From Nereocystis luetkeana (Eukaryota > Sar > Phaeophyceae > Laminariales > Laminariaceae), in the NCBI GenBank assembly GCA_031213475.1, contig JARUPZ010000014.1, positions 7,825,491 to 7,889,490 on the forward strand: DNA of 64,000 nt, read 5' to 3'. Shown in pieces: positions 1,726 to 58,189 of the stretch. Under the pieces are notes generated by a model. That model ran no database searches, had not been told where the DNA came from, and was given only the letters and a program-made list of their open reading frames with translations. Both the position numbers and the translations under genes were made by a program. Positions within the stretch are counted from its first letter, which is position 1. The number at the start of each line of letters is the position of its first letter.

Positions 1726-1733
1726 ATTTTTTC

Positions 1734-2055
1734 GAGTAGGTTTAGCAGTCTGGGAGAAGGGATCTTTAGGGATGTTGTTTACTTGAAAAATGTGTAGCGT
1801 GGTCTGCAATTCGGAATCGTCGTCCGCATCTGATAAATTTCCTGGTTCGATGCAAACTCGGCGTAGCCGCGTTTATGGCGAGTTTTGGCCCGTTTTGGCT
1901 TCGTTTGGGGTCAGGGTTAGGGTTAGGGTTAGGGTTAGGGTTAGAGTCTGGGGTTGGGTTGGGTCTTCGTCCGTATCTTGATCCCAACGGGAACCATAAC
2001 ATCCCAACAGCCTACCAACCTAAAGATCCCTTCTCCCAGATTGCTAAAGGTCCTC
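1734..2055 (+). mobile_element. Telomere-repeat MITE, copy 1 (8-bp TSD)
   Basis: A 322-bp non-autonomous element. Its ends are inverted repeats of about 36 bp: one end opens GAGTAGGTTTAGCAGTCTGG, the other, read inward, opens GAGGACCTTTAGCAATCTGG, and both continue into GAGAAGGGATCTTTAGG. It is flanked by near-identical 8-bp direct repeats, ATTTTTTC at 1726-1733 and ATTTTTTT at 2056-2063. An 8-bp target duplication is the hAT signature, so this is probably a hAT-type MITE. The interior carries a short telomere-like array and no coding capacity. Three more copies lie at 2716, 11473 and 57638. Confidence 0.9.
1911..1946 (+). repeat. Interstitial TTAGGG block inside MITE copy 1
   Basis: Four perfect TTAGGG units at 1917-1940, bordered by the variants TCAGGG and TTAGAG. 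The same variant units border the block in the other copies, so the array is an inherited part of the element rather than a local expansion. Confidence 0.95.
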
Positions 2056-2063
2056 ATTTTTTT

Positions 2064-2707
2064 AGACAAACAGCAGTGATATAATTATCAATGCTTCTTA
2101 CGCTATGCAGTAAACTCTGCACTTGACGTACGTAGTATATTTGCCGCGTCACACCCGAGTACTACATACAGAGACGCCAAAGCCCCTCATCTAGGCGGTG
2201 GGGCCCCATTTTACACCCTGATACAGATTTTCTACTCCGTTTACTGTCGTACTACTTTTACCACTGATCCTATTTATACTACACTACCACTGCTACTAGT
2301 ACTTATACCTCTCTTAACTCGTACTCCTCCTACTACTGTTACTACCATTACCACTACTACGACTGTCACTACTACTAGAATTGTAGTACCACAACGACTA
2401 CTACTGTACCACCACTACTACAGTCAGGGGTGGGACTGGATTCCTGTTTTGAACAAACAAAGCGGCAGGCTATTCGAAACGACTATTAAAAAAAAAAAAT
2501 GAAAAAGTGAAACTACAGCAGAAAAAAAAAATTGAAAAAGTTAAACTACCGACAACCTCACACAGGCCCATACCTTTCGGATGCTTATCTCGTTTTAGCA
2601 CAGAAGTAAAAATCAACTTACTTATAGAGTAAAAGGTGCGGAGAAACATGTTTTTGTTCGGTGTTTTTCGCCTCTTACACTATGAGTGTTTTCGAGTAGT
2701 GCGCAGA
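2064..2707. repeat. Non-coding stretch with degenerate TAC/ACC triplet repeat
   Basis: From about 2235 to 2425 the + strand is a decayed trinucleotide repeat built from TAC, ACC and ACT. At about 2484-2550 an A-rich unit of roughly 37 bp is repeated twice, each copy being an A run followed by a GAAAAAGT-type core. No gene is visible. Confidence 0.7.
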
Positions 2708-2715
2708 CTTAAGTA

Positions 2716-3021
2716 GAGGACCTTTAACAATCTGGGAGAAGGGATCTTTAGGTTGGTAGGCTGTTCGGATGTTTTGGTTCCTGTTGGGATCGAAGTACGG
2801 CGGAAGACCCAACCCAACCCCTGAGTCTAACCCTAACCCTAACCCTAACCCTGACCCCAAACCGCAGCCGAAACGGGCCAAACTCGCTATAAACGCGGTT
2901 TGCATCGAACCAGGAAATTTCTCAGATGCGAGCGACGATTCCGAAGTGCAGACCACGCTACACATTTTTCAAGTAAAAAACATCTCTCAAGACCCCTTCT
3001 CCCAGACTGCTGAACCTACTC
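2716..3021 (-). mobile_element. Telomere-repeat MITE, copy 2 (8-bp TSD)
   Basis: A 306-bp copy in the opposite orientation to copy 1, starting GAGGACC and ending CCTACTC. Perfect 8-bp target duplications CTTAAGTA lie at 2708-2715 and 3022-3029. The interior has three perfect CCCTAA units near 2828-2850. It lies about 140 bp upstream of a hAT-like transposase relic. No common ends with that relic were found, so adjacency does not prove that the relic's family mobilised it. Confidence 0.92.
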
Positions 3022-3834
3022 CTTAAGTATACCCTACATTGAGATGTGTGGCAAAAAACGAAAAAACCCCGCTCGAATCGACGCACTATCCGCAGAGAAC
3101 GATTCGACAAAAAATCACCCTTTGAGTAACGTGTTGGGGACCACGACAATCAATTTCGTGATGGGTAATTCGAAAAAAAAGGAACCTCGGCGAAGAGCAA
3201 AAAGAAAAAAGATGTCCAAGCGAACCGAGAGGCATATCTGCAGCGTACGGGTCGTAGTGTCCACAAGGCCGGGGCGATCGCGTGCCGAGCGAGTGCTGTT
3301 ATCCACCGTGGCATCGCGGGGGCGGAGGTCAGCCGCGACCGGGCTTCGCAGCAGCGAGATGCCAGTCCTGTCGAGGCTGCTCAGGCCAAGGAATCTCTGG
3401 AATCACCCGCTCGTACGCTTTGCGACCAAATCTCGAAGCTCAACCTGGAGCAGGAGCTCAGGCGCGAGACGGAGGAGGCCCTCGCTCAAGCCCAAGCTGA
3501 CCTGCGCGAACAACAGAAATCTGCGCATCGGCAAGAGGTGAAGCGTGTGGCCGCCGAGGCGCGGTCGGCAGAGCTGGCAGAGAGCTTGTCCAAGTTGCGT
3601 CACCGAGGAAGAGAGCTGGCAAAGCAAAATACCACCCTCCTGCAGGAATTTGTTATAACGGCTAGCGAACGGGTTCCATCTCGTATTGGAGGGGCAGGGG
3701 AGGTGAGCGAGAGGTCGCTCGAACTCGACCTCATGCACGAGAAAATCAAAGTGACACAGCTCGAGCGGAAGGCTAAGAACATGGAACCCTTGCTCGTCAA
3801 GTTGAAGGCCAAGACTGGGAGTCTCCAGAAACAG

Positions 3835-7130: not shown

Positions 7131-7157
7131 AATAAGGCAACAATAATATTATCAGAA

Positions 7158-8055: not shown

Positions 8056-8524
8056 CCCACCAGCCCATTTCCCCACGAAAAACGACGAGCACCCCAAGCG
8101 CGCCATCGACAGCGGCCGGTGCTGGTGCCTGCCCATCCACTTGTCCCAGCGAGCCGCGGCGACAACGAAGACGTCGAACTGCAGATAGCAAGCAAACAAA
8201 CATGATATTGCAGCAGGAACAAACGCAGTAGGAATCGAAGGGCGAAGTGGAATAGGTGAGGTTCCGCAGCAGGAAGCAGGGAACGGCATGGCAGCAGCAG
8301 GAGGGAAGGGAAAGGAATGCAGGGACACGACAAGGACAAAAGTATATAGCTCTCAGTACCGTAATATAGGGATTGCTTTTATATTAATATGTGATCCAAA
8401 CGGTCCTTATATATCGGTTGTATAATGGTAACATACAAAAAGAAGGCGGGAGAACAAGGACATACGACTCGCAACTTTCCGGCCACTTCTTTGGTACAAG
8501 TAGTACAACAAAAAAAAAACTCAC
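8056..8524 (-). other. Likely intron of the C-terminal hAT-like relic
   Basis: On the - strand the donor GTGAGT follows SKHE at 8524. Protein-like sequence resumes by about 8055 (SERAVGHEFASAFLAV). The exact acceptor is not clear. Confidence 0.4.
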
Positions 8525-9204
8525 TTCGTGCTTGCTGATTGTGGCTTTCGCAAACTCGATCAGGTCGTTGAAATAGACGTCTTTGATCGCTCGTTGCTCC
8601 TCGAAGCGCGCCCTCATCTCGATGAAGAAGTCGGCCACCTCCACAAAACCCATGCCGGGAGGAAGCTGGTGGCGTAGGCCTTCGCGCTCCACGGAGAACC
8701 CACCCTTGCCACGAAGCCAGTGATACGCCCAGTTCAGGACGAGTTCGGCCAGCCTTGTCGCAAAGCGTGCATGCACTCGAATGACCGGGTCCTGTAGCAT
8801 GTAGACCGCTTGCAACCAGTACACCTGGAACGGAGTACCAAGCAAATCCTCCGCCGCCCACGTGCAAAATACACACTTGAGTTCCACCCAGCGAACATCC
8901 AAAAGCACGGCGCCCTCCCAGATCACCATCCACCGAGTCTCTGCAGGCCCGACAAAGTTCTTCCCGGGGAAGCGCTCCGTCACCAGTTTTTGGAACTGCT
9001 GGAAGGTGGAATTGCATGTGTTGGATCTGCTGACGTTGTACCACACAGACCCCAGAAGCGCCATCAAGTGGTCCCCCTCCCAATCACGCCAACTGCCTAC
9101 ACCTAGAGGGCCCATGAAGCAAGAAGTTGTCAACCCCGCAGTCGCGGAGATGTACAGGATGTGCAATACGCAGCCGAGGCGATGTCCGTGGACGGGAACA
9201 TCTT

Positions 9205-9290
9205 GTACCGAAGCAGCAGCAGCAGCAAGATGAGCAGATCCAGCAGCAGCAGCAGCAGCCGGGTCAGGAACGCCAGCAGCCGCACCAGTA
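9205..9290. repeat. CAG/CTG triplet tract
   Basis: Interrupted (CAG)n on the + strand with two main runs. It lies at the N-terminal edge of the hAT-like half on the other strand, where it would read as Ala or Leu runs. Confidence 0.85.
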
Positions 9291-9350
9291 TCAGCAGATC
9301 CACCTCCAACGAGGCCCGGTAGGGGCTGCAATTCCGGCCTGTCAGCCATC

Positions 9351-11472
9351 GAGGCCGAGGGTCCACCAGTAAATCCCCCTCGAGCTCACGCGCCTGCTTG
9401 TGCGCCGCTTCTCAAGCACCCGTCGTGGTGTGCCGTGCGAGAAGGACACCAGATTTGTTTTCTGTGTGCTGCTCGGCCCTTTTGCAGCGTCTCCTCTACC
9501 ATCCATACCTGATATATGATACCACCTGAATAGGTTTCTATGTGACGTGTCCATTCTTTCCCCAGCGCTGATTGGTTACGTGCATAATATTCATTTCCTC
9601 CAGCTAACGACCGCGAACATTTTTTGTGGTTTGTTTACGTCTAAAAATATTTCAGTCCCACTCCTAACAGTACTATTACTACAAGCAAAACACCGACTTT
9701 CACAACGTGACGCCAATGCCACTATTCGTGATGGTGCTGCTTCTGCGAAAAACAAAAACCAGCACCAAGAGCAGAAACACGCCCACCAGCAGAAGCTCCA
9801 GCTGCAGCAGCGGTAACGACAGGACGACAACACTACAGTTCAGTGAGGAAGAGGGCAGGAGTACGAGTACCAGGTACATGTGTGACGCCGTCCGTTGGAA
9901 TTCGAGCGGTACCGCTAGGGAATGTTCTTGTCGATGGCGTCCAAGCCCATTTAATGTACTGGCAATGAGTACCAGTCGCTGCGACAGACGCCTTGAAGGC
10001 GGTTTTGGCCAGTTAAGAAACGACAGGCGAAGGTAGTCTGCGAAGCATCTACCTGGCAATGAAGATGACACTCGATGTTGTCGATTAGGACGACTGGGAT
10101 TAGATTGAGCAGTCCACTAGTCGGGTCGATCGAATGGCCAATGATGCAATGGTGCATATTGCTTGGGTGTTCGCATCACGGCCGTTGGAATACGACTTTT
10201 TGCAGTACTTTGGTAGTCAGACACAAGGATGGTCTTGACTCTCTTTAACAGGATGAGCTCGCAGGACTTGAGTTTGGCACACCAAGTGACCTTTACTTTC
10301 TACAAGCACAGCAATACTACTTATGTACTGCTGCTGTTCAGGAGCCGCGTCGGTGATTGAAAGAAATACTCCCGTTTTCTAAACACTTTCCCTGTGTATG
10401 ATACGGCAGCAATACTACTTAAGGCGTAGTAACGACATACCGCGGCCCCTTCTCGAAATCATCATAGCTCTATTGCTACTGTAGGCAGATAACCATCACC
10501 CGACCAACGTATAGTCTGTTCCCTATTGCCTCTAGGAAGGTTGAATCCCTTCGACCTGCCACCGAGAAGAGCCATTGCTGTAGTTGCAGCGAGAAACGAT
10601 AGTACTCAGCAGCGCAAACTTTGATACTCCCGGGGCTTCTGCATGGAATTTACACTCTGCTGTGGCCGGGTAGGATGCTATGGACGGTCACACGAGGGTC
10701 GTAGGTAGTGCGCCTGTGCTTCGTGCTATAGACAAAAATATGAGTTAAACAGTATCACCGGCCTGAGAGATGCATTATATATATATTCGTCTAAGGGTAG
10801 GACATGTATTAGAAGTTGAATTTTAGTAAGAGGCAATTTTCGTCATAACTAGACGTCGGGTCGATCCGGCACCGGAAAAAAAACGTATCGCGCATGACTT
10901 TCGCTCTATCAAAAGGCGGTAAGGGAGGTGGTTCGAGCACTAAAAAAACAGAAAAATCGTTGTTGGTACGTACGCAACGAAGGGGGTGATTTATAACAAA
11001 CGGGAAAAAGTCGAACAATTTTCCGAATTGAACCACGTTCGATAGCTCAAATGAAAGATATCGATGACGCAGTGTACCGAAAAGCTACATGTTTTATTTC
11101 AAATGTGGAATTTGAATGTGGAATTGGCAATTTTCGTGTTTATTCAGCTCTTGAGAAAATACCAGAAATCCGACTGCCACTACGGCGAGACACCAAATCT
11201 ATCCAATACTTAGGTTTGTACGGTGGTAGTTATTGATAGCGCTCACGATTGGCACGGGCACGACCGTTTCGTTAATATTGGGTTGAATATAATGCGAGAC
11301 GACTTGATCTAGAAATGGGCACTTTTCAACGTTTTTTTTCTTGAGATTGTGGAAAAAAAATGGGAAACAAGCAAAACCTCGACCGACTTCACTGCACGGC
11401 GCATACAGAAATGAGTTCAGAGTCATTTCAAACAACCAACGGCCCAAACGAACGACATTGGTCCAGCAGTTC
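9351..11472. other. Intergenic stretch, no supported gene
   Basis: Only short frames without recognisable domains. A CAG-rich patch lies near 9770-9815, a TACCAGGTA motif near 9868, and a direct repeat CAGCAATACTACTTA at about 10308 and 10409. Nothing else stands out. Confidence 0.5.
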
Positions 11473-11783
11473 GAGTAGGTTTAGCAGTCTGGGAGAAGGG
11501 ATCTTTAGGGATGTTTTTTACTTGAAAAATGTGTAGCGTGGTCTGCACTTCGGAATCGTCGTCGGCATCTGATAAATTTCCTGGTTCGATGCAAACTCGT
11601 CGTAGCCTCGTTCAAGGCGAGGTTTGGCCCGTTTTGGCTGCGGTTTGGGGTCAGGGTTAGGGTTAGGGTTAGAGTCGGGGGTTGGGTTGGGTCTTCGCCC
11701 GTGCCTTGATCCCAACAGGAACCAAAACATCCGAACAGCCTACCAACCTAAAGATCCCTTCTCCCAGATTGTTAAGGGTCCTC
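11473..11783 (+). mobile_element. Telomere-repeat MITE, copy 3 (8-bp TSD)
   Basis: A 311-bp copy with perfect 8-bp target duplications AGCAGTTC at 11465-11472 and 11784-11791. It has the same orientation as copy 1 and the same ends. The internal block holds only two perfect TTAGGG units, again bordered by TCAGGG and TTAGAG. Confidence 0.93.
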
Positions 11784-11791
11784 AGCAGTTC

Positions 11792-14786
11792 ATAAAATAT
11801 TTACTTGAACGACATAGGCAACAATTCATCGATATTCGGGCAATGTTCTGGAGCCACCGGTTTCGTGTTTGATCCGAAATCGAAGGTTTTGACTGACTCC
11901 ATGTTACGAGACGAAAACTGCATGTAGCATCATTATGTGCCTGGATTCGACGGTGGTCAAAACAACCCCCATTTTATGGGCCAGCTTCTGTTTAGTCTGC
12001 TGCGCTTCCTCCTATTCCTTAGCTCGATTCAGTCAGCGACTGCCGGCCTCCACTTCAGAAGGCGTATCGGCAGCTATGGCTGCAGGGTTAGCCGGCCTTG
12101 GCGAGTCTCGCAGCTCTCATCTGCTTTGCCTTGTTCTTCATTACCAGGTGCATGCGATGCCGATCTGCGTTATTATTTTTTTCCCGTCGTCATCCCCGAG
12201 CGCACGGCACAGCAGCAACGTCGCGACGAGCAGAACCGAGTAGCGCCAAGATCGTGCTGTAGGCCACAGCCAAACGAGGTGCCTTGCTTTGACCTGGCGT
12301 AGCTCAGTCGATACCGCGCCGATCGAGTAACGGTTTCTTGTGCTTGTTTTCCAGGATTATAGGGAGCTCCATGTGATTTGCATGTTTAAAAAAGGGGTTG
12401 AATTCATGAAATTATCCCGTTTACGAGGTACATTCATGTTAAGCGCTAACCCGTCTTCGCGAGTACGTCCTGAACGCCTTGTTGGGTCGTTGGGGGTGTA
12501 GACTCGGTCATTCGAACAGGCTCTACCAATACTTCCTGACTCCCCTTCAGCAGGTTGCCTACTTACCTCAGCTTTCTGTGATGCTACTGATTATTGGTGC
12601 AGGCATCGTAGGTGTTTCGTACGAGCACGCGATTTGCATAAAATATTTAGAGTGTTTCTTATTGAAAAAAGCAAAAAAGGGTATTTTTTTCTTGCAAACA
12701 ACCACCTTCCATAGGATTAGGATAGTAGGGAAAAATGTCCACTTTCTTGACAGTCCGGAACAACTATCTCCGCCGAAGAAACAAAGATGTATTGCCCCTA
12801 TGACAGTACTACTCGTATATGTTTTGCCCGAGGGGGTTCCGTAACAAGGTAGTTTCGATATGCAACGTAGACGGATTTTTTTTCATTGCATCAGAACTTT
12901 GTAACCGTTGCTCCCTCGGTAGATGGATCAATGGACGGTTTCCTCGTGATGCATACATAACAACGATTTTTCCAGAAATCAAATCAAGATCAGGCTAGGC
13001 TCTGTAGCTTCCCGGAATGCGGCGCAACCAGGTCTTTACGGTCAAGGTACCTTGGCATCTACATGGTAAATAACTGAGGGTGATTGCCAGTGAATTCTCG
13101 GGCTTGTTCTATGCGTACCTCGAAACGTCGCGCCTCGCGGTAATTTTGTGAGATTCTAGGCTGACGGGGCCGCCTTGGACCTTGTAGTTTGCTGAGAGTC
13201 GACGGGATCCGCTCGTGTGTGTGCTGTTCCGCGAGCGAGCGAACGTGGCATAGTGTATTCTCGTAGCGGGCGGGTAACAGCGCATTCTTTCTTGAGACGA
13301 AAATGGATATCCCGAAGCTTGAAGTATGGGTCCCGTTTTATCACAGAATAGAGGGGCGGCATAGCACCGATGCGTGGGGAGGACAGTGGTACGAGTATTC
13401 TCCCGAAAGACCGGCCTGACCCTCGCTGCTTATCGTAATGGGAACACCTCGAGATACGTAGTTGTGACATTTTCTCCCGGAGTGCGGTGACCGATATTTG
13501 AACACGAATCCACGCGAGATTCTGCTCAATTTTACCCAAATTTGATGAAAATAGCTCAGTTCAGCCATCACTATCCGGGTTACGGCCGATAGTAGCTTCC
13601 TACGCACACCATGACCACGAGTGTGGCTCGAGAGAAATATATGACTGATGCGCTTGGCATTCTCAGGTCCCCAAGCTTTATCAACTAGACGGTTCCATAA
13701 GAAAGGTTTCGTTACCGCGTCGTGCGTGTAAATTTTTTTCATCTAAATTTTTTGTTCGTTGTGCCGCTGCTGTACACAGCTGAAGAAGCAAATTTCAACG
13801 ACTCCTAAACGACTTCAGGCCTCGAAAGTTCTTTTGAGGGATTTACACCAAGTGCGATACAAAAAGAGAGCAAAAGCGAGAGATTACATACAACGGGTTT
13901 AAATACCCCCCGAGCTTACATTGATTGCACTGCAGTTGTATTCTAGCCGGACAGAAGAAGCACCAGCATATGTTCGCAGCACATTCAACCGGCACGACAA
14001 TTCATCGGCACTCTCTACAGCAGTACCAAGGAGGGAAATAGCAGTACTGACCCATTTTGTGGTACAATATAGCACCCCTCAGTTTTGTGCGGTATTGTGC
14101 CGCAGTGGAGTCAGTGTGACTTGAAAAAACATACCAGGTACCAGGTATCTCCTAAAAAATCATACTCCGACGAGAAACATTACACTGCCGGTTATCCTCC
14201 CGCTTCATTACCGCCGCTCCTACAGACGAGGAGCATTTCGTTATCATTCACGCTCGAGCTTTTTCAAATACTTTAGGAAAGTGTTTGTTTCGTCACTAAT
14301 TCCGAACTTCTGCTTTTGGTTATGTCTGCAGCATTACCGTAGTTATGTTTGGAAAGTGACGGTGTAACCCTGAAAGTTTTTTGTACACGTCGACATCGAC
14401 CACACTCACTTTCTGTTCCGATTCTCCATCCTAGAGAGATACAAGTTTGTGCTCACCACGCCACCAGGCAGAGACTTCAAAGCGCATAGTAATTCAGCAA
14501 GTTTTAGATATCGGAAATTACGTTATCGTACTGCTCGCGAATAGCGCACCACACACAAGCCAGCATTCCCGATGCAATGAGAGAGACAAAACACTACTGA
14601 GACGCATGTCGACGATTATTTGCGTCCTGCCCACTGGTCCGAAAGACACCGTCTGCCATTACGTGTATTGAATTGAGAGGTTATCGACACCCCGTGGGGT
14701 CTGCTACATTGTTTGGAGGCATTAGCCAAGGTACATGTCAAGAGTAACCAGCACGAACAAGGTGTCGACTGCTCATTTCGGTACGC
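11792..14786. other. Intergenic stretch, only weak ORFs
   Basis: The best frame is an ATG-started 133-codon ORF on the - strand at 13341-13742, basic and without a family I recognise. An exon-like - strand scrap near 11930-12180 (KNKAKQMRAARLAKAG) has no supported boundaries. A doubled TACCAGGTA lies near 14134. Treated as non-coding with doubt. Confidence 0.4.
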
Positions 14787-14790
14787 TTGA

Positions 14791-14880
14791 CCCCTTTAGA
14801 ACCGCAGTCCCGTTTTGGGGACAAACTACTTGAAATTTGAGTGGTTTGTCCCCAAAAACGGAACTGCGGTTCTAAAGGGG
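14791..14880. mobile_element. TTAA-flanked hairpin MITE, copy 1
   Basis: A 90-bp near-complete palindrome opening CCCCTTTAGAACCGCAG and closing with its complement. It is flanked by TTGA on the left (one mismatch to TTAA) and TTAA on the right. CCC at the end plus a TTAA target matches the piggyBac signature (family knowledge), so it is probably a piggyBac-type MITE. Confidence 0.85.
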
Positions 14881-32399: not shown

Positions 32400-32650
32400 G
32401 CTCATGGCCCATAGCCTCGCGGTTCCGCGCGGTCTCCCCTCTTGTCCGCCCCCTCAGAACTTCACCTTCCTCCGGGTACCGTCCAGCTTCCCCCACTGTC
32501 CGACCACCCTGCACACCGCCACCACCCTCCTGGTGCCGTGCAGTCTCCCCCCTGGTCCGCCCCCTCAGTACGTCGCCATCCTCCGGGTCCGGGATATAAG
32601 AACCCAGTTCCCGGGCAGCACGCTGCGAAAGCTGTGGCTGCGAAGACTGC
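32400..32650. repeat. Pro-rich linker minisatellite in the Copia element
   Basis: Imperfect units of about 60 bp with cores CCGCCCCCTCAG and TCCTCCGGGT. They lie between the integrase-side triplication and the RT, where Copia elements carry a variable linker. Confidence 0.6.
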
Positions 32651-32689
32651 TGCGGCGGCGACGGCGATGATCTCGGCGGCGACGGCGAC

Positions 32690-34200
32690 GGCGGCGGCGG
32701 CGGCGACGGCGGTGGCGGTGACGGTGGCAGTGGCGGCGGCGGTGACGATGGCGGCGGCAGCGACGGCGACGGTGACGGCGGGGACGGTGGCGACGGCGAC
32801 GGCGGCGGCGGCTGCTGCGGTAGCGGCGGTGATGACGGCGGTAGCGGCGGCAGCAGTGGGGATAGGGACGGTCATCCGGGCCATACGTCAGGGCCTCTCA
32901 GAGGCTCCGGCGTACCCGGGGGCGGTGGTGGCGGCGACGGCGGCGGCGGGGAGCTTTCCTCCTCCGAAGGCAGTTACCCCACAAACGGCTTCCTCGGGTG
33001 CTCCCAAGTGAGGTCGCGGGAGAACGACATCCGGCCAGATGCCAGCAGAATCTTGCTGCAGTCAGCTGCGTGGTGGTTGCCGCCGTTGATGTAGAAACAA
33101 GCCTCCGCCTTCGGCTCGGTCTTCAAGTTCCTCCTGACGTGGTGGAAACCTGGCTTCATAAATGGGAGCAGCCGCGCAAACGGTGCTCTCCCGTAAAATT
33201 TGCGGTGACGGCAGTGGCGGTGACGGTGGCAGTGGCGGCGGTGGTGACGATTGCGGCGGCAGCGACGGCGACGGTGACGGCGGGGACGGTGGCGACGGCG
33301 ACGGCGGCGGAAGCTGCGGCGGTAGCGGCGGTGATGACGGCGGTAGCGGCGGCAGCAGTGGGGATGAGGACGGTCATCCGGGCCATACGTCAGGGCCTCT
33401 CAGAGGCTCCGGCGTACCCGGGGGCGGTGGTGACGGCGACGGCGGCGGCGGGGACCTCTCCTCCTCCGAAGGCAGTTACCCCACAAAAGGCTTCCTCGGG
33501 TGCTCCCAAGTGAGGTAGCGGGAGAACGACATCCGGCCAGATGCCAGCAGAATCTTGCTGCAGTCAGCTGCGTGGTGGTTGCCGCCGTTGAGGTAGAAAC
33601 AAGCCTCCGCCTTCGGCTCGGTCTTCAAGCTCCTCCTGACGTGGTGGAAACCTGGCCTTGAAAATGAGAGCAGCCGCGCAAACGGTGCTCTCCCGTAAAA
33701 TTTGCGGTGACGGCGGTGGCGGTGACGGTGGCAGTGGCGGCGGCGGTGACGATGGCGGCGGCAGCGACGGCGACGGTGACGGCGGGGACGGTGGCGACGG
33801 CGACGGCGGCGGCGGCTGCTGCGGTAGCGGCGGTGATGACGGCGGTAGCGGCGGCAGCAGTGGGGATAGGGACGGTCATCCGGGCCATACGTCAGGGCCT
33901 CTCAGAGGCTCCGGCGTACCCGGGGGCGGTGGTGGCGGCGACGGCGGCGGCGGGGAGCTTTCCTCCTCCGAAGGCAGTTACCCCACAAACGGCTTCCTCG
34001 GGTGCTCCCAAGTGAGGTCGCGGGAGAACGACATCCGGCCAGATGCCAGCAGAATCTTGCTGCAGTCAGCTGCGTGGTGGTTGCCGCCGTTGAGGTAGAA
34101 ACAAGCCTCCGCCTTCGGCTCGGTCTTCAAGCTCCTCCTGACGTGGTGGAAACCTGGCTTCAAAAATGGGAGCAGCCGCGCAAACGGTGCTCTCCCGTAA
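32690..34200. repeat. 502-bp tandem triplication inside the Copia element
   Basis: Three units with a constant 502-bp offset: GGTGACGGTGGCAG occurs at 32717, 33219 and 33721. Each unit joins a GGCGGT/GACGG minisatellite of about 290 bp to a copied integrase tail (on the - strand GFHHVRR, CFYLNGGNHHAADC). Units are nearly identical, so the triplication is recent. The minisatellite gives long false frames on both strands. Confidence 0.9.
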
Positions 34201-35003
34201 AATTTGCGGTACGGCGAGTGCATTTCCGGCTTGTCCCTCACCCTTGCCGTCATATTGATGACGTCGCTCGCGTACACGCAGGACTCAGCCCAAAGGGGCT
34301 GCGTCGCCGGCATCCTTGCATCGCCGAACAGGCGTGGGGCCTCCAGGCGGGACGCCATTGCAAGCTCCAGCGTCATCGAAATTCGCCGTTCGACCACGCC
34401 GTCATGCTTCGGAGAATCAACGGGCGTGTGCTCGCGGTGAATACCGTGATAGTTGAGCAGCTCCACGAACTCCGCCTTGGTGAACTCGGTGCCGTTGTCT
34501 GAGCGAAGGCACTCCACGGTGGACGGAACACCCTTGGCGTTGATGTCGGCCAGAAAACCAGCGAAGACCTTCGGGACGTCGTGCTCCCGCTTCAAGAAAT
34601 ACGGCCATCCCAGTTGCGAGTAGTCGTCGACGATCATCATCATATACTGCGCACCGCCAGCAGACGTCGACTGCTGTCCCGGCAGATCCACGAACAGACG
34701 TTCCAGAGGCCTGGTGGAGCGGCACTCGGTCGTTCACGGCACCGCCATCCTCCTCCCCTTCGCCTCAGAACACCCAGCACACAAAACCAACTCCCCAAAA
34801 ACCTTAATGCCCATCTGGCGTGCCGTCTCACGGAGAGTGTTAGCATGGGAGTGAGCAAGGGAAACGTGAAGGTCGTTAATATCAACCCTCCGCATTTTTC
34901 CGGGGGCCAAGACAGCGGCAACAATCGGGGTCTCTACAGTCCGCTTGGTGTCTACGTACGAAGCTGCGTCCTTATGCACAAAGGACAATTTCCCATCCAA
35001 CAA
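33978..35003 (-). other. Copia integrase
   Basis: The pre-integrase segment (HVSLAHSHANTLRETARQMG) leads to the core with MMIVDDYSQLGWPYF, SDNGTEFTKAEF and HDGVVERRISMTLELA, matching the D, D and E blocks of Copia integrases. Confidence 0.85.
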
Positions 35004-35009
35004 GTGAGC

Positions 35010-35315
35010 TCACCGGGAATCTAAAGTCACCGGGCATTTCAGCATTACTGCGTGAAGTGAAAACAGGTTGAACCGAACACCGGGCACGTAGGCTACGTCC
35101 AAAAGCCCAACTCGAACATCACACTGCGCGCTGTGCATCACCATCGGAATCTGTCCAAAGTACTCGACCTTCAGTGACCTCATGTCACCGACGACTAAAC
35201 TACTCTTGCCGGGGGGAGGGGGGTAACACCCTACCGTACCAAAGGGGTTACCAGTTACGTGAAAGGTTGCTCCCAAATCCGCTACCCACTCTTCCTTCCC
35301 ACTAGACAAAAACAA
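35010..35315 (-). other. Copia protease-like segment
   Basis: WVADLGATFHVTG occupies the place of the Asp-protease motif; DVAYVPGVRFNLFS is the typical Copia protease end. Confidence 0.75.
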
Positions 35316-35501
35316 ATCGTCGCTAAAAATACTCTTGCCTTGGTGCGCAAACTGCGCGGTGAAGAGGTGCGGGTCGAACGTAGGCGTAGGGTTGCCGTTG
35401 TTCGCTGGGCCAGGGGAAAGGAAAGTGCTCGAGGAGGGTTGTTGTGACGTGAAAGCTCCGGCTGAGGTATACCCACCACTGCCGTGGGGCGTCTCCTGCT
35501 G

Positions 35502-35819
35502 CTAGCCACCTCCGTAGTACATCTGTTGAGGGGGAGGGGCAGCAGTACTCGGGACCGCGACGTTCATCTGCGGGGCGGCTACCGGGCAAGCTGCGACGTA
35601 GTGGCCGTGTTTGCCACACCGAAAACAGACCCCGTTGCTCCTCGGTTGCGTGTTGCTCGGCGGGAGACCCCAGCCTGCCAGAGTCATTACGGGCGGCGGG
35701 GGCATAGGGGGCATTGCCCCTGGTGGTGGCTCGGTAGGTACCCAACCCATGGCCGGGACCGCCCCACCCGTACCGAAGGGGTCGGGACCGGAGTCATCCC
35801 AACGGTACCTGCAGGCCAC
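35502..35819 (-). other. Copia gag CCHC zinc knuckle
   Basis: CFRCGKHGHYVAAC fits the C-x2-C-x4-H-x4-C nucleocapsid knuckle. Flanks are Pro-rich. Confidence 0.85.
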
Positions 35820-35972
35820 GGCATCCCAACGCCATTTGGGGCCGGTGATTCCCCCCGGCGAATCTCCTCCCCGGTTGCCATCATGCTGACGGGCACGGTG
35901 CTGCTGCTGGTGGTACTGCTGCTGCTGGGATTGTTGTTGCTGCTGGTGCTGCTGTTGATGATACTGCTGCTG

Positions 35973-36780
35973 CTACTGGGGTCGCTGCCGCTGCTGCTGC
36001 TGCTGCTGCGGATACTGCTGCTGTTGCTGCTGCTGCTGCGGATACTGTTGCTGCTGCTGCTGCTGCGGCTGTTGCCCACCCTTGTACCTCCCGCCTCTCC
36101 TGTCCCTCCTTTCCTTTCGTGGACCCGCACCTCCACAACTGGCAGGCTGCGCACCTCCGGCGTACAAAGCATGCAGCTTTCCCATTCCCTGCACACCTAA
36201 CGCCTTGGAAACCACCTCTCTATCTGCCCTATCGTTTGCGTACGCATCGCGGATGATCTCATCGATCTCGGAACGGGGGATGGACGGGCGGTAAAGAACG
36301 GACTTACTTTGTATCATATATAGAGGCGAGAGGTTCGTCACGATATGCCGGTTCACCTCTTCCACACTCTTACCACAGCCAAGCATGGCCAGCTCATCCG
36401 CTGCCTTATCCACCCTACCTAGAAAAAGCACGGGGTTCTTGTCCTCGACCATTCTGATGGTCTCGAACTATCTCTTTAGCCTATGGGTGGCCGCTATCGT
36501 CCTTGGCATGTAGTAGTCCTCTAATTCCTTCCATGCACCACGTGGCGACATTGCCTTCTGCATTCTGAACTCAGCCATTGCGTATCCAGCCATTGCTTCC
36601 ATCATTAATCCATGAACTAATCGCGCATCCCTAATATCTTGGGGAGAGTGCCTGGATGCTAGCTCCTCCTCCGACACCCTCACGTCACCAACCATAACAG
36701 GGGTTGACGTGCTTAACACATGAAGGCACCCTAGGGATGACAGGTACGCTTCGAACTTACTACACCACATACTAAAGTGG
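35973..36780 (-). other. Copia gag region with polyGln tract
   Basis: Capsid-like helical sequence (FEAYLSSLGCLHVLS, AGYAMAEFRMQKAMS, GRVDKAADELAMLG), then a Gln-rich tail encoded by CTG/CAG repeats at about 35890-36075. Confidence 0.75.
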
Positions 36781-43184: not shown

Positions 43185-44521
43185 CTACCGCTCGAAGCAT
43201 GCCCATGCCCTCTGGAGTCGACGCGTTACCTCGACACTTCTGCTCGTCCAATCTGCGCCGATAGCCCCGCCCAAATGCACAAACTCGGTCGTTTGTTTGT
43301 ACACTTGGCCGGCTTCGGCGACGGTGAACGGCACGTTCCCCCTATCTTTCGTTTGCAGACACATTATCTCCGTCTTGGCCTCCGAGACCGTCACGCCGAA
43401 AGCGGCCCATGCAGACACGATCACCGTCATCATCCTCTCCAGGCCGTTAGGTGATCTCGATACTATGCCCGCAACGTCAGCATACGGTATAGCCCACAGT
43501 GTTCGGGCCTCTTTACCATTACCCTGTCCGTCGGCGTGGCCGGCCCGTGCCTTCCCCCTCTCCCGTTCCTTCTTCTCCTGCTTTCGTTGGAGTTGCACTA
43601 AGCTGTCCTAGATGAATTTATCACACGCGAACCGTTTCTCCGCCACACGCAACACCGCTGTGAAAAACATGTTGAACAACGAAGGCGCGACCATACACCC
43701 TTGCCGAAGGCCTTGTTTCTCGTCGAGCATATCTGAGCAGGCGCCGCCATCCAGCCGCACGCATGCTTGCATGCCGTGGTGGATTTGGCGGATAACGGTG
43801 ACAATTCTAGGTGGCACGCCAAAGCGGGCCAAGTAAGCCCACGGGAGGGTTCGGTCGACGGAGTCATAAGCTTTGATGAGGTCGAAGAAGCACATGAACA
43901 GCGGAGTGTCCTTCTTCCTTCCCAATTCCCGCAAGCCTCGCACCACGAACATCATGTCGACCGTCGACCGTTCGGGCCTAAAGTCACACTGCGCCTCTGG
44001 CAGGATGCCTTCCCGTTCGCAGTAGTCGCTGAAGCGGCGCGCGATGGCTTTGAGGAGTACTTTGCGGGCATGCGCGACAAGGGAAATGCCACGATAGTTA
44101 CCACATTCCGTCCTGTCTTTCTTCTTGGGCCATGACAGTTACCACATTCCGTCCTGTCTTTCTTCTTGTGCAGCACCTTAATCGATGCATCCTTCCGTTG
44201 CTGCGGCACGAGCCCTCCCCTCCTCACAGCGACGACAATCTCGTAGACGCTGCCCAAGGTGTCCGAGTCTCCTTCGTCGGCCAGGACCTTCAGAAGTTCC
44301 GCTGGGAGACCATCAGGCCCAACCGCCTTGCGGTTCGCCATCGCCCTGATTGCGTCTTCCACCTCGTATCTAGACGGGACGTCGTCCAGTGGACTGCACG
44401 AGGGCCAGACCGTGAGCTCGTCGACGATAATCGGGCCGAGGGTCGATGACTTGATGTTTAGCAGCTTATGGAACCACCTTACCCATCGTTCCCGGATGAG
44501 GCCTATGTCTCGCAGTAACAT
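43185..44521 (-). other. LINE reverse transcriptase core
   Basis: The fingers and palm blocks are readable across three frames. [12 protein letters not shown] holds the first palm Asp; PYADVAG replaces YADD. Confidence 0.88.
44088..44173. repeat. Direct duplication of about 43 bp inside the LINE RT
   Basis: AGTTACCACATTCCGTCCTG followed by TCTTTCTTCTTG occurs twice in tandem, joined by GGCCATGAC. Confidence 0.9.
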
Positions 44522-47410: not shown

Positions 47411-48626
47411 TTCCTCCTGAATGCCCTTCTGCCTCCTTTTTGTTCTCTCAGATGATCGGAGCCATGAGTACTGATATATATGTTCGCTAAAAAACGAGAT
47501 AGCTTGCACCTTGAATATCACAACGAACATGTTGTCCTCTTCCCAAACGTGCTGGGGCATGACTTCTCGTACCACTACCGCACTACTTCGTAAATATCGT
47601 ATGATTCTAGCGGTCGTTTTAGTTTTATTCACGCGCCGTGGTGAGCAAAATTATGAACGTCAATGAACAGCTTCGTGCACTCTATATATGTTGCGCGCCG
47701 CGCAATGTACATGTACCCCCCAATCCGGCAGCCTCTGGAGAAAATAGACAACTGCGACGATAATGCTAGGCAGACAATGATGGACAAAGTCAAGGAGTCC
47801 ATACTGTAATCAGAACGGAGCGCGCTCGTCAGGGTTTCCGACCCACCTTAGTGTCACAGTGCTCACACCGGTCGGTGATATTTAGCGTGGGTGTGCGAGA
47901 CGTCAGCTGCCTCGTGCAAATTTTGGCTTGCCCCGTGTCATTTTAGGTATGAACCACGGTGTGCGTCATCGAGGGTAGGGGGGAGAATCCCGCACGCCTT
48001 TGGCGGTTATGAGAAGGGGAAAACCGCACCGCCATCCCCGGCCGCAGGTTCATATAGAAGTAAGTATGTAACCATTTATATAGATATATTTTACTAGAAT
48101 GTCAGGCACGGGGCGACGCCACCCCCTCCTGTTCAATACAATAAATGGTATGGGAAAATAATTACGGAAGGTGTTTCAAAGCTCGAGATGGTCACCTGGT
48201 ACGCCCCTCTACCGGATACCCGAAATAAATGAAAAAAGGTAAAAACAAGTTGATTGGGGTAAATCCTGAAAAACTCTCTCTTATCAAACCTTATATATAT
48301 ATATATCGTATGCTCTGTGGGGATATATACTCGTATAGCTGCGCCATAGTGGGGACGGGAGAGGTGAGTATGTTTTGTGACCCGGATATTTTGACTAGGG
48401 GGCCCCAAACATATTTCAGCGACGGTGATACATGGGAAGAGAACGAAACAATATTTTGTGTCGTCCTCGTAGACTGGTTCATCCGATTTGCCTTCTCTTA
48501 AATAAATGCCTACTACCCGTGGGGCTCTTCTAGCGTGTCTTTAAGGGGACTCTGGCGCGCTCAGGAATGTGTCGTCAAGCACCCGCGCGTTACGGCAACA
48601 TATATATATATATATATGCGTACGAC
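47411..48626. other. Stretch without a supported gene
   Basis: Only (TA)n patches near 48293-48305 and 48600-48617. No gene or repeat family is recognised. Confidence 0.45.
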
Positions 48627-48630
48627 TTAA

Positions 48631-48719
48631 CCCTTTTAGAACCGCAGTCCCGTTTTGGGGACAAACTACTTGAAAATTGACTGATTTGTCCCTAAAACGG
48701 GACTGCGGTTCTAAAAGGG
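48631..48719. mobile_element. TTAA-flanked hairpin MITE, copy 2
   Basis: 89 bp, from CCCTTTTAGAACCGCAG to its complement. Perfect TTAA lies on both sides (48627-48630 and 48720-48723). Nearly the whole element is one palindrome around CTTGAAAATTGACTG. This is the best-preserved copy. Confidence 0.92.
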
Positions 48720-49956: not shown

Positions 49957-50456
49957 TAGGTTGCCACTAGTGGGGGGGGCAGTGGAGGGAGAAAAGAGTC
50001 TGTATGTTGTCTGCTGATGCTTGAGACAGTTCGTCCCAGTAAACATTTCGATGTGTCTGTCTCTTTTGCTTCCTCTTCCTTCTCTGTGTCCGGATTTGGG
50101 TTTGGCGTTCGCCCGTGAGCTTGACGTCAGGGGAAATTGGGTAATTGTAAGATAAGTATCATACGAATACGAACGAACTTGGTTTTGTTGGAGTTGGGTG
50201 GAGAGCACGCTTTATAATACGGAGAATACACTACAGGCGAATACCTGACCGTCGACCACAGCACCGCGGTAAGCTGAACGCGTACAGTCCGCTGTTGTTG
50301 TGCTGCTGTTGTACATATCCCTTTCCGCCGGTGTACGCACGCATTCACGCATCCGCACTATGGTTGATGTATGTTAAGCTGTGCTGGGGTATCTTTGAAA
50401 ATGCAAGCTGTGACGTTGGTTGAGATGTTCGTACTGGCACAGTGTTCACATTAACT

Positions 50457-50701
50457 CGTTTCACTATTTCATAGATTGCGTATGTCGTGCCTGTCGTATC
50501 TAGTATGATGACATGGCTTTGCATTGCCCACTGCAGTTCACACTGCACACGTGGCAACGTCGTATCTCTGTGGCGTAGCTTTGTGACCACAGAACTTGTA
50601 TCTCTTCTAGGATTGAAGAATCGGCACGGACACTGGTTGTGCTGGATGTCGACGGGTAGAAAGAACGGTTTAATGTGAAGAACACACACACACACACACA
50701 C
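50457..50701 (+). mobile_element. Repeat family R2, copy with (CA)n tail
   Basis: About 245 bp beginning CGTTTCACTATTTCATAG and ending TTTAATGTGAAGAA followed by (CA)n. It is almost identical, in inverted orientation, to 51476-51712. The constant 3' end with a simple-repeat tail and variable 5' ends in other copies resemble a SINE or LINE 3' end. A conserved frame of about 63 codons (CTRGNVVSLWRSFV) is shared by the copies, but that follows from their similarity. Confidence 0.8.
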
Positions 50702-51475
50702 TACTGCTACTCAGACAAGCGCATTTTATCCTACTGTGCTGCTGTATTTGCAGTCCAATCGTGCCCGACTCTTGTTGTATGTGAAGCATATACCGTAACT
50801 AACCTATGTGTCCACTCCTCTACGTATCAAGCGCGCTCTAGGGTGAAATAGGGCTGCAAGGCACTTCTAAGACATTTTTGAAGGCCTTTGCCTGGGCCAC
50901 ATAAGGCATTTAAGGCATGAAATGGGACTCAAGGCAAATGCCTTACAGCGTGCCTTACCCGGGGTTTTTTTGCCTACGGCGCACTTTAGGGCGTATGCCT
51001 TAACCCTTTTAGAACTGAAGTCTCATTTTGGGGACAATCCACTCAAATTTCAAGTAGTTTGCCCCCAAATTGGGACTGCGGTTCTAACCCGATTTCACCG
51101 TCCCTTACTCGCTACGGCTTAGGTCAATCTCAACCTCAAAACAAATCACCGTCGCTCTCCGGTGAGCTCGAACCAGACGAAATTCTTAATGAAGCGTGTT
51201 AACATAGCAGTGTGTTTTTTCTGTTTGTCATAAAACCTCTAAATATTTTGTGCGACCGGACCCGGCGACCAGGGGACGCCTGGGCGCCGGCGTCCCTTAA
51301 AGTCGGGGGGCACCCAAGTCTAACTTATAATTATTTATGTTACTATTACTAGGTATATCTCCGGAGAGGTCGGCAGGCCACTATGTCGTACGTCGTACAC
51401 ACGTGTCTCCGACCTTCCATCCAGTTGAATTTTCATCCTATCTGCAGGGATTTTTAAAAACAAATCTACTTGCTA
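50702..51475. other. Spacer between the inverted R2 copies
   Basis: Contains TAAGGCA/TGCCTTA motifs at about 50850-51000, then a TTAA MITE copy. No coding sequence. Confidence 0.5.
51004..51087. mobile_element. TTAA-flanked MITE, copy 3 (right end damaged)
   Basis: TTAA at 51000-51003, then CCCTTTTAGAACTGAAGTC, and the inverted half to GACTGCGGTTCTAA, after which the terminal AAGGG and TTAA are missing. Confidence 0.75.
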
Positions 51476-51712
51476 GTGTGTGTGTGTTCTTCACATTAAA
51501 CCGTTCTTTCTACCCGTCGACATCCAGCACAACCAGTGTCCGTGCCGATTCTTCAATCCTAGAAGAAATACAAGTTCTGTGGTCACAAAGCTACGCCACA
51601 GAGATACTACGTTGCCACGTGTGCAGTGTGAACTGCAGTGGGCAATGCAAAGCCATGTCATCAAACTAGATACGACAGGCACGACATACGCAATCTATGA
51701 AATAGTGAAACG
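51476..51712 (-). mobile_element. Repeat family R2, inverted partner copy
   Basis: Reverse orientation to the copy at 50457, with only a few differences (about 98% by eye). The pair encloses 775 bp. It could be two independent insertions or the arms of a 1.26-kb foldback element. No target duplication was recognised. Confidence 0.8.
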
Positions 51713-52515
51713 AAAAGAAACAACCAGAGAGAAAACAAAAACAAGGTAGACAAATCGAAAAAGAAAAAGAAGAAAAATGAAAGCAAAATCTAAGGGAAAC
51801 AATCTGTCGTGCCCCCCCCCCCGCAGGCGAGGTGGCCAACACTTGAAAAAGAACGAGCTGGAAAAAAGAAGAAATAACAAAAAACACCACTGCTTGTGAA
51901 CAGAGTAAGACAAAGAACCAAGGAGAAAGTAACAAGGAAAAATAACAAAGGGGAAATAACAGGCAGACCAAAGCCCAAAGCACCTTCCAGGTGGCGGCAG
52001 CAGCTTGTGGTACGAGTAGTATAGCCAGGTTCTCCCTGCTAATCCGCCCGGTACCTTGCTACCCAGACTGCCGTCTCCGCCCTGCGTTCGTCAACTATTC
52101 CCAGCCCCTTGGCGTCAGACAATACGAGCCGAGCAGAGCACGTTCGTCTTCCAACCACGCTCCTTGAGTACGGCTTATCAATCAGAAAAAGAAGAGGAAG
52201 AGAAAAAATGAAATGAAAATCACGGAGAGTCAGCGCAAGAAAGAAAAAAAAACAAAACTAAAAGAGAAGACAACCATCATTACTGGACTCTCTCGTTTTC
52301 AGTGCTTTCGTGTTCGCGGGTTTCGTCTACGCCGCCCTAAGGTTGTTTCATACATCGTACCAGGTACGTACGTGTCCACCATTATTAGTTGACTATATTG
52401 AGAGCTGAGAGTACACATATCTCCGATGACCGTGTGCCTCGAGAGTCCTGATGATAATATTGATGATGCTGTTCTCGCATCATTATCACTTTCTTGAGTC
52501 CCTGCGGAGTGATCA
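51713..52515. other. A-rich stretch, possibly another LINE 3' UTR
   Basis: From 51715 to about 51990 the + strand is strongly A/G-rich, like the 3' UTRs of the LINE copies, and ends at CTTCCAGGTGGCGGCAGC. The similarity is one of composition only. No gene is visible. Confidence 0.35.
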
Positions 52516-52670
52516 CATGTGTGTGTGTTCTTCACAATAAACCCTTCTTTCTACCCGTCGACATCCAGCACAACCAGTGTCCGTGCCGATTCTTCAATCC
52601 TATTAATAGAAAAGATAGAAGTTATGTGGTCACAAAACTACGCCACAAAGATGCTACGTAACAGGTTGTG
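52516..52670 (-). mobile_element. Repeat family R2, truncated copy
   Basis: Same orientation as 51476. It shares GTGTGTTCTTCACAATAAAC, CCGTCGACATCCAGCACAAC and the TACGCCACA block, then loses similarity. A small insertion near 52600 sets it apart. Confidence 0.75.
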
Positions 52671-54617: not shown

Positions 54618-55045
54618 AGGTAGGTATGGAAATTGCGTTATGGTAATATCTCTTTATGGGTGGTGAAGTGGGCAATGAAAGTTATATATATGTATATATA
54701 ATATATATATATATATATGTATATCTATAATATATATATATATACATATCGGCCGTCTCGTAGGGTCTTCGGCCAAGTCTACGCTAGTAGTTTTCGCCCT
54801 GATCGGGATAGACGATTCGAATGCGAATTTCGTCTTCAACAGTTAGTTGGTAGTTTTGAGTTTTCGTTGATATCTTGTCGAGATCTCGTCGAATAACAAA
54901 AACGTCATTTTTGGTATACTCTCGTTGGGCACATACATTACATGCAGTATTGTGTGAGAGTTAGTGCCTCCAAATTTCAAGCCCTAATACGCAGTGAGTG
55001 CCTCACGAGATACGGCTTTCGGATGGTTTACCCATTTATTTTTCG
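54618..55045. repeat. Dispersed repeat family R1, copy 3, split by (TA)n
   Basis: Blocks GTGGGCAATGAAAG, CGCCCTGATCGGGAT and GTGCCTCCAAATTTCAAG match 18640-18945 in order. CACGAGATACGGCTT matches 19435. A palindromic (TA)n tract lies at about 54684-54746 between the first two blocks. Confidence 0.6.
54684..54746. repeat. (TA)n tract with ATGTATA breaks
   Basis: About 60 bp of alternating TA with a few G or C interruptions. It could extrude as a cruciform. Confidence 0.85.
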
Positions 55046-57637
55046 ACTTGCCCACCTCGTACACATACAGCTGATTCAGGTCGGGTGCGAAAAATGGAAA
55101 GATTTTTCAAGAAGATCCGTTTTCTGTGTTGTTTAAGATTTACCTCACAATGAGGTTACCATTCGGTGCACTGTTTCCTGTTCGCGCCTCACTTTGCTCG
55201 TCCCTCCAGTCTCTGCCAGGGATAACCACGGCCGCGCTCGCGTCGTGTGAGGGGGGGGGTTTCTGTTTAGTTTTTTGTTTTTTTTTCCAACATTGTTGTT
55301 TCGATGTCAACTGTCTAATCGTTCTGTGCATATATTTACAAGGTTCCCCTTCAGGATGTGGGTGGCATGAAATCCGGGGGGTGTCGCAAGTTGAAAACGG
55401 AGACGCAGGTAAAACCCTTGCACCTTTGTCTTGAGTAAAAATGATCTCGGAGAAAATTGAGTCATGGGCTACTGATCTATTGCTAAAAGCGAAGAGTAGT
55501 AGTCTAGTCTTCGCCGCTCTCGCATGTCTTGGCGCATACCTGGTAGGAGACATGGACTACTGTATTGCTTCAAGAAAAGCGTAGGACCGAAATTGAAGGG
55601 GTATGCATTATCCAGGTATTTATCGCCTGGGTGGGATCTGTATCATTGATCTAGGATGGGTGATCCTTGATGATCTGAACACCTCTACTGGGTACAGTCT
55701 GCACGATCTGCATGAACCTAACCCTAACCCTAATCGAACATACGTGTGCCGTCATTAACTAACTGATGAATAGCTTTGCGTGTGTGGGTCCGCATGATCC
55801 AAACGATCTGTACGATCTGCAAGGTCTGTATACTGTAGATGTATCACACTTTTCTTTGGCGGTGACATCTGCTTGGTCTTTATGATTACCATGTATGTGT
55901 GCATGATGTGGAGGATCTGCATGATCGAGTATCTACACACTCCAACTTGTAGTTTGCCTGGAGAGACAGGTATGTTCCGTATCAACTCCACTTGTATCCC
56001 AAGTGGGTTGGGGAGGCGTGTTCTCCACCAATCCCAGTAAAGAGACTACCCAATTTCTTATTTTCCTATAAATCTCAGCCTTCCTTTCTTTGTGCTCGTT
56101 TCCTTATTGCGTACCGGGTACGTACACACACCTGGTGCTGAATTTTTTAACCAAGTAAATTTGATGGTGTTATACCCATGGTCTGATATTATACCTGATA
56201 CGTGTACAGGTTATAGCAAATATATCGGGAGACATGCCAAGCAAGGCTAAACATGCGTTGTCAAGGGTGTAAGGCCGAAGTGTTCCACGGTAAAACCTAC
56301 TAGATTGGTGTCGGTCACGGCATGTCAAGGCAAAGCTGCTGTCTGTCAAGGGTTGAAAGTCCTGTCTCCCGACATATTTGGGTTATAGGGCATTATTTTG
56401 GTAGTGGGGCCTGGAAACAGTGGTGAAGAAGGAAGAAAAAAAAAATCAAGGCTTGATAAGGTGTTTTCGATACGGGGTTGATCTTGACGACACCTGACCG
56501 TTTTTGTATAAACCAAATTATGCGTTTGCAGCGCGCTGTTCGCTCGTCTGCTTGCCCTCGAGCGACCCACTTTGGCCTCTGTCTTTGTCCATCACCAACC
56601 CTCCAAAATATGGTTGATTTGTTTTGGTGATGCTACTGTTGTGCCCGTCCGTAGTATCATGTTTATGCAGCTACGAAAACAAAAAGAGGGGTCGTGTTAC
56701 CTGGTACCTAATTGGACGAAAAAGCTACCAAACTAAAGAGGTAGCGCGTTACCCGCTACCTCTTTGGACGAAAAATAGGGCCCGTGACGGTATTAAATTT
56801 AGCATCAAGTGATCCTTTAATTTTTGTCCATAGTTCTATCAAGGTGCTTACGTAATTGGATTACATAGTGTGACATTAAGTCTAAACAGTCGCGTGGTAT
56901 ATGCCACTACACGTGGAACTCTCGGGTAAAATAAAAATGTTATCGTTTGCTGGTACGATCGTATCATCCAGAGTGTTGTGTAGTACGATACCTCGTACAT
57001 TGCAAACCGCCATCCCCTGAGACGTGGAGGAATAACCGAGCAGCTGGTTCATGAAATGCAGAACACCTAGACGTATGACACGTCCTCTAGACCGACTACA
57101 GCAGTAAGTAGTGGACCGCTAACAATAGATAGTGTAATATTGATAGTCTAAGTGCGTCCACAAAATATATACCCAGCGGTATAAACGCATAGTATGACTG
57201 CTGCAACACGAGCGGGGCAGGCTACGGGCACAGATGATACGTCACACGAGCCCACCCAGAGCCAACCCATCCACTCACCCACCCACGAATCAACCCCAAC
57301 CAACGCATCCACTCTCCTATCCTTTCCTAACCCTACAAAAAATCAATGCACAGCTATTAATACAACCCAAGGAAAATTAATAGCAAGCGGGAAAATAACC
57401 GAGCAAAAAAAAGCAAACAAGCAAAAAATACGCAAAGCGAGGACGGGGCTATTCGAGCAAGTATTATTATGTTTGCCTTCCCACAAAATAGCGTACATGC
57501 ATATTCCAATCTAAACCTAATGTTCTTCCGTAAATCAGCAGTACTCCTCATACACTTCTCTGCCAGCCGATTCACAGTTTCCCTCCCCCACATCATTTCA
57601 TTCTATTGAAGATCCAAACGGACGTCACTACCTTAGC
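55046..57637. other. Intergenic stretch with GATCTG repeats and short telomere-like block
   Basis: A degenerate GATCTGCAYGATCTG pattern spans about 55640-55940. Inside it, near 55713-55735, lies CCTAACCCTAACCCTAA, a telomere-like block not surrounded by the MITE seen elsewhere. TACCTGGTA occurs near 55537 and 56699. The frame at 57194-57514 (Thr/Pro-rich) is not convincing. Confidence 0.45.
56735..56765. repeat. Perfect 12-bp hairpin
   Basis: AAAGAGGTAGCG, a 7-base loop, then CGCTACCTCTTT. TTGGACGAAAAA occurs directly before (56712) and after (56764), as if this were the remains of a small duplicated or inserted unit. Confidence 0.75.
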
Positions 57638-57953
57638 GAGGACCTTTAACAATCTGGGAGAAGGGATCTTTTGGTTGGTAGGCTGTTCGGATGTTTTGGT
57701 TCCTGTTGGGATCAAGGTACGGGCGAAGACCCAACCCAACGCCTGACTCTAACCCTAACCCTAACCCTGACCCCAAACCGCAGCCAAAACGGGCCAAAAC
57801 GGGCCAAAAACGCGGCTACGCTGAGTTTGCATCGAACCAGGAAATTTCTCAGAATAGATGCGGACGACGATTCCGAAGTGCAGACCACGCCACACATTTT
57901 TCAAGTAAAAAACATGCCTAAAGATCCCTTCTCCCAGACTGCTGAACCTACTC
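57638..57953 (-). mobile_element. Telomere-repeat MITE, copy 4 (8-bp TSD)
   Basis: A 316-bp copy with the orientation of copy 2. Perfect target duplications ACCTTAGC lie at 57630-57637 and 57954-57961. The ends are GAGGACC and CCTACTC. Two perfect CCCTAA units remain, with the same variant border units as the other copies. Confidence 0.93.
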
Positions 57954-58189
57954 ACCTTAGCGAAGTGCATAATACAGGTGCTTGGGTTATTGAATTATTA
58001 ATATTTCCGAAATTATTCGCGCTATCCGGCATACACGAGACGGAGGTCGTAAGTGCGTCCCCTTCTTTCCTAGCAAGTTCGTCCCATTCCTTCCTAGCCC
58101 TTGTCGCCTGGCACCTCTCTTGTCTTTCGTTGCTCGTTTGCGGTCGAGTCTTATGCTTTATTTGGGCTTCTACTCCCCCGAACCCAGCT

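Follow-up and report, generated by a model that had tools for sequence, protein, structure and literature searches.

A family of short inverted-repeat elements with an internal telomere-type repeat and 8-bp target duplications in a 64-kb window of the Nereocystis luetkeana genome

The DNA considered here, a 64-kb window of Nereocystis luetkeana contig JARUPZ010000014.1 (by "the window" we mean the whole stretch that was analysed, 64,000 nucleotides), holds four copies of a short repeated element, each 306-322 bp long by BLAST and direct comparison. They occupy exactly the intervals given in a first-pass annotation, which had described a family of miniature inverted-repeat transposable elements (MITEs) that carries telomere repeats and inserts with 8-bp target duplications. 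All frequencies given below cover these four copies in this one window. Pairwise identity among the copies is 91.3-93.9% when gap columns are excluded and 87.3-92.4% by BLAST with gaps counted, and each copy diverges from the majority consensus of the four by 2.9-4.7%, a level that suggests a fairly young family.

The ends of the element are shared throughout: the left end is GAGTAGG and the right end GAGGACC in all four copies, as annotated, so that in its own orientation the element starts with GAGTAGG and finishes with the complement of GAGGACC. These ends form imperfect inverted repeats of 37 bp (about 36 bp had been annotated), with 33, 28, 31 and 30 of 37 positions matching in copies 1, 2, 3 and 4. 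Within the first seven bases, the left and right ends are mismatched at the same three positions in every copy; further in, six of the eight ends carry the same 21 inner bases, CTGGGAGAAGGGATCTTTAGG. When copy 3, the only copy folded, is treated as single-strand DNA, its ends pair from position 9 inward, with z = -5.1 against 100 shuffles.

Each copy is also bracketed by a short direct repeat. Read in element orientation these are ATTTTTTC/ATTTTTTT, matching at 7/8 positions, and TACTTAAG, AGCAGTTC and GCTAAGGT, each at 8/8, the three perfect duplications and one near-perfect one that had been annotated. At random pairs of sites with similar spacing (200,000 draws), a match of at least 7/8 occurs at a frequency of 0.0006 and a match of 8/8 at 0.00006. 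Because the element is short (at most 322 bp, too small to encode a transposase), has terminal inverted repeats in all four copies and is flanked by target duplications of fixed length, we consider it very probably a non-autonomous DNA transposon family of MITE type, represented here by four separate insertions (Table 1). A scan of the window for 8/8 duplications beside inverted ends (at least 14/20 positions matching, no more than 12 kb apart) returned five pairs: copies 2, 3 and 4, the MITE-like element described below (56217-56380) and a match within a long inverted repeat (50456-51713), the last of which is unlikely to be a real target duplication. Twenty Markov surrogates scanned in the same way gave 6 pairs in total.

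Table 1. Positions in the window of the element copies, their target duplications and their telomere-like stretches
Feature	Coordinates	Strand	Details
MITE copy 1	1734..2055	+	322 bp
MITE copy 2	2716..3021	-	306 bp
MITE copy 3	11473..11783	+	311 bp; nearest to consensus of the four
MITE copy 4	57638..57953	-	316 bp
Copy 1 target duplication, left	1726..1733	+	ATTTTTTC; 7/8 match to 2056-2063
Copy 1 target duplication, right	2056..2063	+	ATTTTTTT
Copy 2 target duplication, left	2708..2715	+	CTTAAGTA on +; 8/8
Copy 2 target duplication, right	3022..3029	+	CTTAAGTA on +; 8/8
Copy 3 target duplication, left	11465..11472	+	AGCAGTTC; 8/8
Copy 3 target duplication, right	11784..11791	+	AGCAGTTC; 8/8
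Copy 4 target duplication, left	57630..57637	+	ACCTTAGC on +; 8/8
Copy 4 target duplication, right	57954..57961	+	ACCTTAGC on +; 8/8
Copy 1 telomere-like stretch	1908..1963	+	exact core (TTAGGG)4 at 1917-1940
Copy 2 telomere-like stretch	2808..2857	-	exact core (TTAGGG)3 at 2831-2848; right border TTAGAC
Copy 3 telomere-like stretch	11648..11691	+	exact core (TTAGGG)2 at 11657-11668
Copy 4 telomere-like stretch	57730..57773	-	exact core (TTAGGG)2 at 57753-57764

Beginning 164-180 bp into the element, every copy contains a telomere-type block whose exact (TTAGGG)n core has n = 4, 3, 2 and 2 in copies 1-4, in agreement with the annotated range of two to four units. The core is preceded by TCAGGG in all four copies and followed by TTAGAG in copies 1, 3 and 4; the border units had been described as the same in every copy, which is correct on the left and fails on the right in copy 2, where the unit is TTAGAC. 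The degenerate telomere-like stretch around the core spans 44-56 bp when an ideal TTAGGG array serves as the scoring reference, so the block is present as annotated and longer than stated. Five telomere-like tracts in the window reach a score of at least 11 (35, 29, 23, 23 and 17), and the top four are those of the element copies; 20 Markov surrogates contained a mean of 0.25 such tracts at this threshold and 0 at a score of at least 14.

Of the five tracts of (TTAGGG)2 or more in the window, four sit in this element, and the one at 55717-55733, a (TTAGGG)2, lies outside any element copy. When the flanks of this fifth tract are joined (12 + 4 bases), 15 of the 16 bases agree with a tract-free sequence nearby, 55913-55928; extended to 12 + 6 bases, they have no match within 2 mismatches. 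This arrangement would fit a small telomeric insertion at a break in a local repeat, and we treat it as a lead only.

The superfamily of the element is less easily read from its structure. Elements of the hAT superfamily have termini that follow the pattern (C/T)A(A/G)NG and a target consensus of nTnnnnAn or nnnTAnnn, while Mutator-like elements (MULEs) mostly make target duplications of 9 bp (range 8-11) and often have ends that begin with G. The 8-bp duplications and small size found here are shared with hAT MITEs, but the ends, GAGTA and GAGGA, differ from the hAT type at positions 1 and 5 in all four copies, and none of the four target sites fits either form of the hAT consensus, four sites being too few to reject a preference. 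Set against the MULE pattern, the element has ends that start with G and duplications of 8 bp. According to the part of PMC12730594 available to us, Zisupton and Dileera of the KDZ group also produce 8-bp duplications; the element shares with them these duplications and terminal inverted repeats, and no KDZ transposase is tied to its ends. Because such other superfamilies share the 8-bp length, it is in itself no proof of hAT. The hAT origin implied by the first-pass annotation is therefore unsupported: the duplications are not specific to hAT, the ends depart from the hAT pattern and searches of the window found no autonomous partner. As context only, the available portion of PMC12477816 gives, for a curated Ectocarpus library, 6403 KDZ copies versus 128 hAT copies, together with 51 unclassified DNA families.

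Several searches for such a partner, or for further traces of the element, bear on this point. For non-autonomous elements, the Repbase rule asks for a match over the first 11 bp of the ends (PMC4455052). Searching the window with the 30-nt inner repeat and allowing up to 9 mismatches recovered the two ends of each copy and nothing else, eight sites in all. Two looser matches to the outer 18 nt, for which there is no control, lie outside the copies, at 10098 with 4 mismatches and at 54399 with 5. A scan for GAG...CTC pairs (up to 20 kb, 8/8 duplications, at least 10/20 end bases) returned copies 2, 3 and 4 alone; it misses copy 1 by design, the duplication of that copy being 7/8. Pfam searches of 26 of the 49 listed open reading frames (ORFs) in the window gave retroelement domains and no DNA transposase. 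One ORF, at 8384-9385, had looked hAT-like by eye and was dropped when it gave no Pfam match even at E = 1. Three exact element patterns searched against viral contigs gave 0 stretches each; one exact pattern searched against prokaryote genomes gave 1 stretch, in a bacterial metagenome-assembled genome, where the 301 surrounding bases are by eye unlike the element, and we take it as a chance match. Scanning the window with Rfam and for tRNAs returned nothing.

Tandem repeats carried on MITEs have precedents: Xstir on a Xenopus MITE was reportedly described by Hikosaka and Kawahara in 2004, and insect MITEs with (GTCY)n are said to have been described by Coates in 2011. Both, as far as the accessible text of PMC6947457 goes, are likewise short non-autonomous inverted-repeat elements bearing a tandem repeat, whereas the unit here is the telomere hexamer and the target duplication measures 8 bp. 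MITEs that carry a simple repeat are in this respect already known, and a MITE family with a telomere-repeat passenger is a structural variant of that kind. Mobile DNA with TTAGGG units is likewise represented in Mycosphaerella graminicola, by putative Penelope-like retroelements associated with telomeres, which in the available part of PMC4522978 bear one to three TTAGGG at their 3' end; those elements lie at chromosome ends and their repeat is terminal, whereas the repeat described here is internal and belongs to a DNA transposon. In the portions consulted of two reviews (PMC6410037, PMC9693754), short interstitial telomeric sequences consist of a TTAGGG array as well; the array here differs in lying within a defined element that is flanked by target duplications. 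Full-text searches of the open-licence literature, with Repbase and supplementary files outside their reach, showed no MITE with an internal TTAGGG array among the papers listed (for two broad searches, 25 of 542 and 20 of 24 hits), which were judged by title and opening of the abstract and, for those consulted, by passages.

The four insertions, their duplications and ends, and the presence and varying length of the block are direct observations; the mechanism that very probably joins them runs as follows. A transposase encoded at another genomic site would act in trans and recognise the inner portion that the inverted ends have in common, and the element would be excised and then inserted with an 8-bp staggered cut, leaving the 8-bp duplications. 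The telomere-type block would be an internal passenger that the four copies inherited from their common ancestor. The number of whole TTAGGG units in its core may have risen or fallen since then, with replication slippage as the simplest cause. Each insertion would have taken the block to a new place. Against this account stand the number of copies known, four in a single 64-kb window, the failure to see an autonomous element with these ends in that window, and the absence of any sign that selection keeps the block. A quite different history would make the four copies pieces of one locally duplicated segment with no separate insertions, and copies 1 and 2 do lie only 660 bp apart, in opposite orientation. 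However, the target duplication differs at each of the four copies, and when the 500-bp flanks are compared across copies the single strong match is DNA common to the neighbouring copies 1 and 2; the remaining flank matches are 11-24 nt long (best E 0.006) and adjoin none of the insertion points. Because the duplications differ per copy and the flanks beside the insertion points are unrelated, we reject local duplication, which we regard as extremely improbable, and read the four copies from their sequence as separate transposition events. In that sense the claim that a MITE family with 8-bp duplications moves telomere-type repeats to new sites has sequence support for four insertions; the further claim, that it spreads telomere sequence to chromosome interiors, is borne out only for sites inside this window.

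Where the block came from is a separate matter, on which the element itself is not in dispute. It may derive from a telomere or telomerase patch that was caught when a longer parent element suffered a deletion, or it may be an ordinary microsatellite that slippage enlarged where the MITE is rich in G, its identity with the telomere unit being a coincidence; we hold the odds between the two to be about even. The number of TTAGGG units differs among copies, the surroundings of the block are G-rich with TTGGG and TTTGGGG motifs, and other simple repeats on MITEs have been published (the (GTCY)n and Xstir cases above, per the accessible text of PMC6947457), all of which suits a microsatellite. By contrast, the sequence on both sides of the core best fits TTAGGG in the core's own phase in all four copies (12-13/18 versus 9-11 for the next best phase in the 18 nt to the left, and 17/24 versus 12-13 in the 24 nt to the right), and a separate short TTAGGG tract is present elsewhere in the window. 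This fit in phase is weak and amounts to one observation, because the copies descend from one ancestor and units that adjoin the core can hardly be out of phase with it. A further proposal, that the block is functional and kept by selection, through telomere-type Myb binding or a quadruplex that aids nuclear position, target choice or replication, could draw on two observations: the block occurs in all four copies, and every one of their telomere-like stretches contains a quadruplex motif. Such motifs, however, occur at seven further sites in the window too, and at this age the other parts of the element are about equally conserved, so no selection can be read; we consider a selected function improbable. 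The roles that the first-pass annotation suggested (fragile sites, G-quadruplexes, sites for telomere healing) are conjectural, the quadruplex motifs being the one observation that bears on them. In the most far-reaching form of the passenger mechanism, which we regard as doubtful, much of the interstitial telomeric sequence in this genome would stem from this DNA transposon family as a main source, its block coming from a telomere or telomerase patch captured when a longer parent was deleted and cut-and-paste movement having seeded many chromosome-internal sites.

The window contains other repeats and elements. A second, different MITE-like element of 164 bp, at 56217-56380, has inverted ends (CAAATAT...) that match at 18/20 positions and a perfect 8-bp duplication, GGTTATAG. 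The inverted repeat at 50456-51713 has 238-nt arms that are 99% complementary and 782 nt apart, and parts of it occur again at 52518-52602 and 60399-60540. A short self-complementary repeat family (TTAGAACCGCAGTCCCGTTTTGGGGACA...) is found at 14778-14874, 48618-48714 and 50991-51087 and is perhaps a tiny foldback element. On the minus strand at 30853-36467 lies a Copia-like retroelement, with an integrase core and a Pol beta-barrel that exceed Pfam cut-offs and a zinc knuckle and reverse transcriptase that fall under them; at 32700-34003 a 300-nt stretch is present in three copies with a spacing of 502 nt. A fragment of a reverse transcriptase resembling those of long interspersed nuclear elements lies on the minus strand at 43608-44138 (RVT_1, E = 7.7e-20). 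When viral contigs were searched for a LINE reverse transcriptase of the window, 2 stretches fitted a pattern and neither encoded a relative. The LINE and other proteins of the window resemble brown-algal ones; a regular-expression search for the EsV-1-7 motif of brown algae gave six loose matches, two of which are a single cysteine run within a simple repeat, and was uninformative on the host.

Mobile elements bearing telomeric repeats, or remnants of element insertions, are proposed as origins of interstitial telomeric sequences in the sections consulted of the two reviews (PMC6410037, PMC9693754), and the four copies described here are a sequence-level example of this proposed route. Because the repeat lies inside a defined element that leaves a duplication at each insertion, the proposed origin can now be counted in the full assembly, as the share of TTAGGG tracts that sit in the element. 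In Ectocarpus, according to the available part of PMC11541908, TTAGGG motifs occur within a subtelomeric satellite, and the same text has similar satellites in Chlamydomonas hypothesised to seed telomere healing; telomere motifs in mobile DNA are therefore a fair subject for tests of breakage and healing.

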